From Thermasporomyces composti (lineage in GTDB: Bacteria > Actinomycetota > Actinomycetes > Propionibacteriales > Actinopolymorphaceae), in assembly GCF_003386795.1 (NCBI RefSeq), contig NZ_QTUC01000001.1, forward strand, positions 620,001 to 684,000: a stretch of DNA of 64,000 nt, in the 5' to 3' direction. Both the position numbers and the translations under genes were made by a program. The notes beneath the pieces are model-generated. The model saw only the letters and a list, made by a program, of their open reading frames with translations, did not search any database and was not told the origin of the DNA. How positions within the stretch are numbered: position 1 is the first letter of the stretch; every line of letters starts with the position of its first letter. Below are positions 36,051 through 54,465 of this stretch, piece by piece.

Positions 36051-40370
<4,320 letters not shown>

Positions 40371-40639
40371 CGCTTCGCCTCCTGGAATGTGGTTTCCCAC
40401 CCGTGGTGGGTGGGCCCGGTGGATGTCGAGCGCCCCATCCACGACGGCGTGGCGGAGCCGAACCCAGACGGACGCGGCCAGCGTGGTCCAGCACTGTTTC
40501 ACGGGCGCGCGCGATCTGTTGCGCACGGATGACGAGACGAGGTCGACTGTGAAATCCAGGTGAACGGCAGCACAGTCGGCGGAGTGGGTCTCGCTACCCC
40601 GGAAAGGCCCTCGTGCAGGCCTTATGCGCGCACACGGTC

Positions 40640-44505: not shown

Positions 44506-45277
44506 CGCCTCGGTCTCCCTCCTCGTCAGTGCCCGATTGGCCGGCGACGGGTTGGTCGGCGCCCGGTGGCTCGGGGGCTGGGCGAGTCATCGGCGGGTGC
44601 AATGTCTGTCGAGGACCGCGACGGAAGAGCTGCGCTGGACGACCCGTCTCGGTCTTCCTGGTGGCACCGACCGGGACGACGAAGCCCTCGACGCTCTTCA
44701 CCTTCCGGTAGAAGTTCCGCGGGTCGAGGCGGACGCCCCAGACCGCCTCGTAGACCTGCTGCAGCTCTGCGATGGTGAACTCCGGGCCGCAGAACGCGGT
44801 GGCCAGTGCGGAGTACTCCAGCTTGTTCCGGGCGCGCTCGACGCCGTCGGTGAGGATCTGTCGGTGGTCGAACGCGAGCCGGGTGCAAGGCGACAGCGCG
44901 ACGTCGACGGGCACCCAGCGTGCGGCGGACGCGTCGGTGCCGGCGACGGGCTCCGGAAGGCCGGGCGCGATCGCGAGATACGCGACGGAGATGACCCGCC
45001 CCCGTGGGTCCCGTCCGGGTGCGCCATAGGCGGCGAGCTGCTCGAGGTGCAGCGTGTCGGCGGTGAGGCCGGCTTCCTCGTTCAGCTCGCGGTGTGCTGC
45101 TTCCAGCAGGTCCTCTCCTGCGTTGTTCAAGAACCCGCCGGGGAGGGCGAGCTGCCCCTGGTACGGCTCGATCCCCCGCTCGACGAGCAGCGCGTGGAGT
45201 CGGCCCTCGCGCAGCGTCAGGATGACCAGGTCCACCGCGAGCAGCACGGCGGGAGGAACCCACTGATCGTCGATCAC
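44498..45277 (-). CDS. NUDIX hydrolase with NrtR-like winged-helix C-terminus
   Basis: 259 residues from GTG 45277. The NUDIX box is readable as GGFLNNAGEDLLEAAHRELN then EEAGL, with one extra residue in the first loop relative to G-x5-E but the REL-x-EE-x-G catalytic part intact. Residues 155-215 (KLEYSALATAFCGPEFTIAE, LQQVYEAVWGVRL, NFYRKVKSVEGF) match the winged-helix part of NrtR-type regulators, which bind ADP-ribose and control NAD metabolism. It could be a repressor, an ADP-ribose pyrophosphatase, or both. The last 45 residues are Pro-rich and disordered. First gene of a three-gene overlapping operon; a perfect palindrome lies 15 nt upstream of its start. Confidence 0.85.
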   Translation of the reverse strand: MIDDQWVPPAVLLAVDLVILTLREGRLHALLVERGIEPYQGQLALPGGFLNNAGEDLLEAAHRELNEEAGLTADTLHLEQLAAYGAPGRDPRGRVISVAYLAIAPGLPEPVAGTDASAARWVPVDVALSPCTRLAFDHRQILTDGVERARNKLEYSALATAFCGPEFTIAELQQVYEAVWGVRLDPRNFYRKVKSVEGFVVPVGATRKTETGRPAQLFRRGPRQTLHPPMTRPAPEPPGADQPVAGQSGTDEEGDRGDE

Positions 45278-45292
45278 GGTCGCCAGCGTAGG

Positions 45293-45313
45293 TTCTTGTC
45301 ACTTTGACAAGAA
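45293..45313. promoter_or_regulatory. Perfect 9+3+9 palindrome, likely operator of the NUDIX operon
   Basis: Arms TTCTTGTCA (45293-45301) and TGACAAGAA (45305-45313) are exact inverse complements around the centre CTT. The element is 15 nt upstream of the NUDIX/NrtR-like start codon, where a repressor would block initiation. Length and placement fit a dimeric winged-helix protein binding its own promoter. Confidence 0.65.
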
Positions 45314-53303: not shown

Positions 53304-54359
53304 TCAGGCCTTGGCGAAGACCACCCAGACCTGACCTGGCGCGAAGGTCAGTGGTTCGCCTGTCTCGGTCTCGAACGTCGTGCCGGACGTGGGGCTGGGG
53401 CGGGACCACCGCGCGTCGTACGCGCGCCCATCCCGGAGCACCAGAGCGCGGCCAGCGCCGACGGATTCGGTGTAGGGGGTGTTGTTCCCCAGCTTGTCGC
53501 TGAACCGAGACGGACGGATCGAGGTGTACTGCACCACGACCGTCGAGGCCTGCGGCGCCGGCCCGGAGGCCGACTCCAGCGGCTCACCGTCCATGGAGAC
53601 GGTCCAGCGCCGGTCAGAGGTCGACCAGTGGAAGCTCACCTGGAACGCCGGGTAGTCGACGGTGTGCTCGGTGGCGGGCCGGCCGCCAGCCGGGGCCGGG
53701 CCGAACCGGAAGCCGATGTCCTTCGCGACGCTCGCCTTCGGCGCCTTCTCGAGCAGCTCCCCGGTCCTGGCGTACAGGTTGTGCGGCGCGGGACGTGTGC
53801 TGCCCCGCAGGTACGCCGATCCGGCGTGCGCGGGCGAGACGTCGTGGACGGGCGCGCGCCCGATGATGGGAAGCACCCTGCTGTGCGCCCCTGAGTAGGC
53901 GAACGCTGGCTCACCGAACTGGCGGAGCAGTTCCAGGTCGGATTCACGGGCACTGCGGATCGGCCCGATCAGCTCGGGGCGCTTGGACGAGAAGATCGCC
54001 AGGATGCGTCCGAGGCCACCCTCGACGGGCTCGATGTAGACGATGTCGGCGTCCGCCAGACCGGTATGCGGTCGAGCCGCCCGCACGTTGTCGAACTTCA
54101 CCGCGAGGACGGGTTCGCGGTGATCGCCGGGAAGCCCGGTGAACGGCGAGATCGGTGCCGGCGTCGACGTCCGGGCGGGCGCGGTTCGTCGTGGAGTCGG
54201 AGAGGTCGCGGTCGGGGTGGCTGTCCTGGCGGGCTCGGGCTCGGCTGTCGGCGATGCCACGGGCGAGCCCATCACCCGTGGGACCGCCTGGGCCGAGCAG
54301 GCGGTGGCCGCGACCGCTGCTGCGACCGCCAGGATCGCGGGGAGGCGATATCGATTCAT
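53304..54359 (-). CDS. DUF3048 (YerB-like) domain lipoprotein
   Basis: 351 residues. The N-terminal signal ends in AATAC, so Cys21 is a probable lipidation site. A Thr/Pro/Ala-rich linker (about 30-70) leads to the YerB-like domain: SPFTGLPGDHREPVLAVKFD, ARPHTGLADADIVYIEPVEG, GPIRSARESDLELLRQFG, PHNLYARTGELLEKAP and the C-terminal part ending GQVWVVFAKA. Predicted surface-attached; biochemical role unknown, family members are linked to cell-wall or sporulation contexts. No Shine-Dalgarno is visible before the ATG, and an AT-rich leader with TTTGT/ACAAA arms precedes it. Confidence 0.88.
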   Translation of the reverse strand: MNRYRLPAILAVAAAVAATACSAQAVPRVMGSPVASPTAEPEPARTATPTATSPTPRRTAPARTSTPAPISPFTGLPGDHREPVLAVKFDNVRAARPHTGLADADIVYIEPVEGGLGRILAIFSSKRPELIGPIRSARESDLELLRQFGEPAFAYSGAHSRVLPIIGRAPVHDVSPAHAGSAYLRGSTRPAPHNLYARTGELLEKAPKASVAKDIGFRFGPAPAGGRPATEHTVDYPAFQVSFHWSTSDRRWTVSMDGEPLESASGPAPQASTVVVQYTSIRPSRFSDKLGNNTPYTESVGAGRALVLRDGRAYDARWSRPSPTSGTTFETETGEPLTFAPGQVWVVFAKA

Positions 54360-54425: not shown

Positions 54426-54465
54426 AAAAAGGTCCCTTCGTATGGTCAGGCCATACGAAGGGACC
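54426..54465 (-). terminator. Intrinsic terminator after the LLM oxidoreductase gene
   Basis: A perfect 15-bp stem (arms GGTCCCTTCGTATGG at 54431-54445 and CCATACGAAGGGACC at 54451-54465) with a 5-nt loop. On the minus strand it is followed immediately by TTTTT. It is 96 nt after the LLM stop and 70 nt before the DUF3048 start, so it isolates the two genes. By far the clearest terminator in the window. Confidence 0.85.

Follow-up and report, generated by a model that had tools for sequence, protein, structure and literature searches.

A conserved palindrome as the probable operator of a self-regulated NUDIX/winged-helix and nucleosidase cassette of actinobacteria

The palindrome described here is located in a window of 64,000 nucleotides of the Thermasporomyces composti genome, which is the whole stretch of DNA that was analysed, directly upstream of three tightly packed genes on the minus strand that we call P1, P2, and P3. 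The P1 gene (44498–45277) codes for a protein of 259 amino acids, which had been recognised in the preliminary description as carrying a NUDIX domain and a winged helix; this assignment was borne out by domain matches to NUDIX (E-value of 1.3e-19) and NrtR_WHD (4.1e-16), with Pfam scores of 71 bits for PF00293 and 59.3 bits for PF21906 (cut-off 27). The NUDIX sensor domain comprises residues 15–142 (44852–45235, minus strand) with the catalytic residues E55, R63 E64 L65, and E67 E68 intact, and the NrtR-type winged helix follows at residues 164–219 (44621–44788, minus strand), including a predicted recognition segment RNFYRKV (187–193). A PDB profile search with P1 yielded AraR and Shewanella NrtR on top, the best match being 5bs6, the AraR protein of Bacteroides (BT0354), at 6.4e-34. 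The P2 gene (43270–44505, minus strand) overlaps P1 by 8 nt and codes for an enzyme with the fold of MTA/SAH nucleosidases (residues 1–245), followed by a disordered linker and a four-helix C-terminus, and the P3 gene (41147–43273, minus strand) overlaps P2 by 4 nt (ATGA). Downstream of these genes, an ordinary nitrogen-control cluster is present at 36051–40526, containing glnD, glnB/PII, and an ammonium transporter gene.

At positions 45293–45313, we found the sequence TTCTTGTCA-CTT-TGACAAGAA, a 21-bp palindrome of the form TTCTTGTCA-N3-TGACAAGAA in which both 9-bp arms are perfect and which is separated by 15 nt from the GTG start codon of P1 (45277, minus strand); its position, symmetry, and distance to the gene agree exactly with what had been claimed beforehand. 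As a bare inverted repeat, the palindrome is unremarkable, as the window contains 18 inverted repeats with arms of at least 9 nt and spacers of up to 9 nt, and a first-order Markov control gave about 10. Because chance alone would give some ten comparable repeats in the window, any inference from the palindrome statistics alone was dropped. The palindrome stands out above chance because it is conserved across loci, as detailed below, and it is also distinguished by its AT-richness: it is the only inverted repeat of the window with a GC content below 40%, the window as a whole having 70%, and AT-rich repeats did not occur among the matches of the Markov control. The preliminary description had proposed a genome search for further copies, and when we ran it with up to three mismatches over the 64-kb window and the whole 4.37-Mb genome, no copy was found beyond that of this operon; this and the other genome-wide statements are based on pattern searches. 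Elsewhere in the window, at 54431–54465, a perfect 15-bp inverted repeat of the form GGTCCCTTCGTATGG-N5-CCATACGAAGGGACC is found once in the genome; it precedes a DUF3048 gene (53304–54359, minus strand) by about 70 nt and represents a candidate operator or terminator.

For the comparison with related loci, we fetched 80 loci by their P1 proteins (64–82% identical), resulting in a set of 81 together with the window locus. By title, nearly all of them belong to actinomycetes. One locus, L009, comes from a metagenome bin that carries the label Acidobacteriota; the cassette is located there on a short contig, and its P1 is 72% identical to that of the window, which points to either transfer or mis-binning. 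Absence of the palindrome upstream of orthologous operons had been named as the test of its role, and the site turned out to be present upstream of every operon fetched, preceding the orthologous start codon in 80 of 80 related loci at a distance of 11–28 nt, mostly 14–20 nt. The consensus of the 81 sites is TTnyTGTCannnTGACAnnAA, with the half-site TTnyTGTCA. Eight arm positions are invariant in all of them (T1, T2, T5, G6, T7, A15, C16, and A20), T13, G14, A17, and A21 are kept in 76–79 of the 81, and the flanks are near random. Because the sites were located by their likeness to the palindrome of the window itself, control windows were needed: while the best arm match within 75 nt of the orthologous start covered 12–18 of 18 positions in all 81 loci (mean 15.2), not one of 20,457 other 78-nt windows from the same loci reached 14 of 18. 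In the T. composti genome, a relaxed pattern with one mismatch allowed matches this place alone. The strict pattern yielded exactly one match in 22 of 28 cassette genomes, each adjoining P1, and none in the other six, because the sites there deviate from the pattern; a reversed control pattern gave no match in the 28 genomes. With one site per genome, the regulon is therefore confined to this operon, within the limits of a pattern search of this kind.

The promoter elements around the site were deduced from cross-species conservation because a scan with a strict sigma-70 pattern called no promoter here. Of the 81 loci, 76 have a TAnnnT box that ends 5–8 nt ahead of the start codon (at 7 nt in 53 and at 6 nt in 21 of them), and the counterpart of this box in the window is the candidate −10 element TACGCT (45285–45290, minus strand), located 7 nt before the GTG start. 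The candidate −35 element TTCTTG (45308–45313, minus strand) lies within one arm of the palindrome at a distance of 17 nt from the candidate −10 element. An SD-like core was detected before P1 in only 2 of 81 loci, compared to 69 of 74 before P2. Because the site covers the −35 region and the spacer of this putative promoter, the −10 box is located 5–8 nt from the start codon, and SD-like cores are almost absent, the palindrome appears to be a DNA operator placed as expected for repression of a leaderless promoter. Streptomyces loci have their −10 box about 4 nt farther from the palindrome than the window does, and the exact −35 hexamer may therefore differ between the groups, with operator and promoter overlapping in both.

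An inverted repeat in this place might also act at the RNA level, either as an attenuator or as a terminator of the upstream gamma-glutamyltransferase gene, and the copy in the window indeed folds well as RNA (z of −3.95) and is located past the end of the upstream gene on the same strand (45466). However, the upstream genes are not conserved between the loci, and the short distance of 5–8 nt from the −10 box to the start codon places the site upstream of the likely transcript. Moreover, the zero-based columns 3 and 17 of the 81 sites are complementary in 28% of the cases, compared to 45% predicted under independence, and only 7 of the 81 sites are fully palindromic, whereas TT--TGT is invariant. 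In view of the missing base-pair covariation and the leaderless geometry, we rejected an RNA hairpin or terminator as hardly probable at all and continue to regard the palindrome as a probable DNA operator.

The genes behind this operator are kept together in a constant order, with P1 and P2 present in 80 of 80 related loci and P3 in all but one, which is cut off by the contig end. P2 and P3 usually overlap by ATGA, P1 and P2 overlap or abut, and the neighbouring genes are mostly unrelated between the loci. Because the three genes overlap or abut and each orthologous operon fetched has the site in front, P1 should control the nucleosidase and TPR genes as well; the proposed autoregulation is strongly supported by a site that is present in a single copy per genome, before one tight operon and nowhere else, and that is conserved in 81 of 81 loci. 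Judging from these sequence comparisons, we consider it very probable that P1 uses the palindrome as its operator and autoregulates the P1-P2-P3 operon. When 297 genomes of the class were independently searched with a P3 profile, 16 proved to contain a full-length P3, and comparison with the P1 positions placed a P1-like gene next to P3 in all 16. Three of these cassettes are divergent (P1-like protein 57% identical) and were left out of the motif definition; their operator, which agrees with the consensus in 13–14 of 14 positions, is located between the NUDIX gene, which it closely follows, and the remaining genes. Since it does not precede a full-length P1 gene there, strict autoregulation need not hold everywhere. 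The cassette is present in at least seven actinobacterial families and represents a mobile-looking three-gene set; a search of plasmids and phages for the cassette, based on a comparison of P1, retrieved P1 relatives at only 32–63% identity. Some single loci were organised differently. In L158, one of the three divergent cassettes, a second, NUDIX-only reading frame (1391–1867) carries an operator 15 nt before its likely ATG and is adjoined by a separate full-length NUDIX-winged-helix gene. L013 (Actinosynnema) retains P1 and the operator, and its P2 and P3 seem to be broken into short frames. In the Nonomuraea loci L053, L071, and L074, the P2 matches span about 1.6–2.2 kb between P1 and P3, and two nucleosidase-like reading frames in the P2 interval of L053 and L071 suggest a duplication of P2.

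The P1 proteins of the cassettes form a single group in the tree (100/100 support), and their Nudix catalytic E/REL/EE residues are invariant in 81 of 81 sequences. The T. composti genome contains a second NrtR_WHD gene (G000:C1:446200), which is oriented divergently from nadA; the name nadA was assigned by inspection of the translation. This paralog reads RRQLAEK and has lost the Nudix catalytic residues, a degeneration that was found in none of the 81 P1 sequences. The interval between it and nadA carries GGGTTTTCG-N9-CGAAAACCC, a GTTTTCG-type box resembling the box GTTTTCGA-N7-TCGAAAAC of Mycobacterium smegmatis (PMC6800001). P1 scored 132.9 bits against the NCBIfam equivalog NF050029 for NrtR, far below the cut-off of 400, and NAD-metabolism genes are found neither next to P1 nor behind the operator, whose single genomic copy is that of this operon. 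The preliminary description had placed the operon under the control of NAD turnover, and this part did not hold up: the link to NAD is unsupported because the NrtR linked to nadA is encoded by another gene and has a box of its own and P1 belongs to a distinct clade with intact Nudix residues, and no copy of the site is present near NAD genes. An NAD regulon was rejected on these grounds, together with the lack of further sites.

A sister clade of NUDIX-winged-helix proteins with about 60% identity is encoded divergently from an SPFH/band-7-like gene (assigned by inspection) and goes along with TTATCGTC-type (TCGTC-type) palindromes, probably representing a separate regulatory pair; in these loci (L119–L135, e.g. 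L122 and L126), two TCGTC-type palindromes are often present between the genes, one per promoter. The pairing of regulator and operator is clade-specific, with TGTC-type sites for P1, TCGTC-type sites for the SPFH-linked, and GTTTTCG-type sites for the nadA-linked regulators. At residues 173 and 190, 81 of 81 cassette P1 proteins have Q and Y, and 17 of 17 SPFH-linked proteins have R and H; we hypothesise that these two residues may set the preference for TGTC or CGTC. This hypothesis is weakened by the three divergent cassettes, which have either Y or H at residue 190 and a TGTC site all the same. Three regulator clades with three distinct operators and Tyr, His, or Gln at position 190 lend themselves well to the study of DNA recognition by NrtR-type winged helices. 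Palindromes of such size are bound by many regulators, and as the pairing of P1 with the site is a prediction, a different host regulator might be the one that binds, the conservation of the site then reflecting recruitment of a common actinobacterial regulator. This would be difficult to reconcile with a site occurring in one copy per genome, with the cassette only, across several families, or with sister clades of P1 that have related yet distinct operators beside their own genes, and we consider it quite improbable compared to binding by P1.

The P2 protein matches PF01048 with 115.7 bits, and its model shows the MTAN fold (TM of about 0.86 by target length), with MTA/SAH nucleosidases as the closest relatives and E15, E183, E185, and D209 as invariant residues. 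For P3, a Pfam search gave no family, an NTPase family being absent from P3 and its relatives alike, and no convincing relative was found in the PDB by sequence or fold. Its structure model (mean pLDDT of 83) consists of a disordered N-terminus, TPR-like helices, long helices resembling membrane hairpins, and a beta domain. The P2 linker and the P3 N-terminus contain a common motif around VGIQA, represented by NIATGNARVGIQAGTIQGSVV at residues 299–319 of P2 (43549–43611, minus strand) and NIARDNARVGIQTEAVHLNIV at residues 14–34 of P3 (43172–43234, minus strand), which falls into low-confidence segments of both models. The best local match of the C-terminal part of P2 against P3 begins within P3 residues 1–60 in 54 of 57 genomes, with modest scores that exceed those of every shuffle in 14 of the 57. 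The shared motif seems to resemble bacterial amyloid-signalling motifs, and as in BASS, it is a short motif in a disordered segment common to the proteins of two neighbouring genes. However, P3 lacks the nucleotide-binding domain of an NLR partner, and because it is not an NLR, we do not claim BASS membership and liken the motif to BASS by layout alone. P2 has the PF01048 fold and the catalytic Glu/Asp residues expected of a PNP-domain immune effector and was matched by PADLOC to the PN-superfamily effector model (1.6e-19), the matches being limited to generic nucleosidase effector models; P1 and P3 matched no PADLOC system. The identity of the cassette as a named PADLOC system was rejected.

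These properties of P2 could also be read in purely metabolic terms. P1 would then respond to NAD or ADP-ribose at its own operator, P2 would be a housekeeping MTA/SAH-type nucleosidase salvaging adenine nucleosides, and P3 an accessory membrane protein, in keeping with the MTAN fold and the invariant E15, E183/E185, and D209 of P2 and with the regulation of metabolism by NrtR relatives (PMC6800001, PMC4666351). We nevertheless regard a plain metabolic unit as unlikely: the cassette has a patchy distribution (found in 16 of the 297 genomes searched), its flanking genes are mostly unrelated, the genome already contains other PF01048 (PNP-family) genes, the nadA-linked NrtR is separate, and salvage would not need a motif common to P2 and P3. 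Because this motif is BASS-like in layout and the cassette is patchy with unrelated flanks, a repressed conflict or cell-death system is suggested instead, although for such a role of the cassette we see the case as evenly balanced. Overall, we consider the cassette most likely to serve stress or phage defence as a self-regulated unit, and not to belong to ordinary NAD metabolism.

In the mechanism we propose for this unit, P1 would act as a one-component NUDIX/winged-helix repressor of its own operon, binding presumably as a dimer to the palindrome and thereby covering the −35 region and spacer, which would keep the operon nearly off. A ligand of the NUDIX pocket, for which ADP-ribose or another NDP-X nucleotide is our best guess, would build up under stress that consumes NAD or nucleotides, for instance when phages attack, and ligand-bound P1 would release the operator and allow P2 and P3 to be made. 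By analogy to related regulators, an ADP-ribose-like ligand is a reasonable candidate, to which we give about equal weight for and against. Because its Nudix catalytic residues are intact, P1 could remove its own ligand, and this putative hydrolysis might reset the switch. P2 would serve as the nucleosidase effector and P3 as its membrane-bound, TPR-like partner, the motif in the disordered segments of both probably coupling the two. A bolder version, which we put forward only tentatively and hold to be rather doubtful, is a horizontally moving actinobacterial immune or cell-death cassette in which an active NUDIX repressor both senses and erases an ADP-ribose-type alarm and a non-NLR membrane sensor activates the nucleosidase by templating the shared amyloid-like motif.

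No description of the P1-P2-P3 cassette was found in the literature searched. The single palindrome provides a defined, testable switch for a cassette occurring in at least seven actinobacterial families. NrtR proteins, such as the auto-repressor MsNrtR of Mycobacterium smegmatis (PMC6800001), share with P1 the combination of NUDIX and NrtR_WHD and the palindrome at their own promoter. They differ in the box, which is GTTTTCGA for NrtR and TTnyTGTCA in the P1 system, and the P1 system is further set apart by the lack of NAD genes, the retained Nudix catalytic residues, and the nadA-linked paralog in the same genome. The sugar regulator AraR of Bacteroides (BT0354) has the same NUDIX-winged-helix architecture as P1 but differs in targets, taxon, and ligand class, and it illustrates that the ligand in this family need not be ADP-ribose (PMC4666351). 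In the Nudix-HTH or WYL regulated ARG conflict systems (Iyer et al. 2022), Nudix-HTH negative regulators were proposed as sensors of ADP-ribose derivatives (PMC9503650). As proposed for the P1 cassette, a one-component Nudix-HTH negative regulator precedes a conflict-type operon (PMC9503650), whereas the P1 cassette lacks an ADP-ribosylglycohydrolase or phosphatase and carries a nucleosidase and a TPR-like/membrane protein as payload. P2 resembles the PNP-domain immune effectors, namely Cap17 of CBASS, Detocs, and NLR-like systems (PMC10952713, PMC11249213), as a PF01048 enzyme in a putative conflict operon, and effectors of this fold degrading ATP are known from Detocs and CBASS (PMC10952713, PMC11249213); P2 is nearest to MTA/SAH nucleosidases instead, and the known partner genes are absent. 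If our model is true, it would link an ADP-ribose-type sensor to a nucleosidase effector. Finally, BASS (Dyrka et al. 2020, as summarised in PMC7889193 and PMC8086366) are similar to P2 and P3 in that neighbouring genes share a short glycine-rich motif, which is placed near the N-terminus of one protein and within a disordered segment of its partner, and BASS pairs occur in filamentous actinobacteria. The P2/P3 pair differs from them by the position of the motif in the middle of P2 and by a partner protein that is not an NLR, and if the proposed coupling is true, it would offer a concrete case for the question raised in PMC7889193 of signalling amyloids in NLR-independent bacterial pathways.
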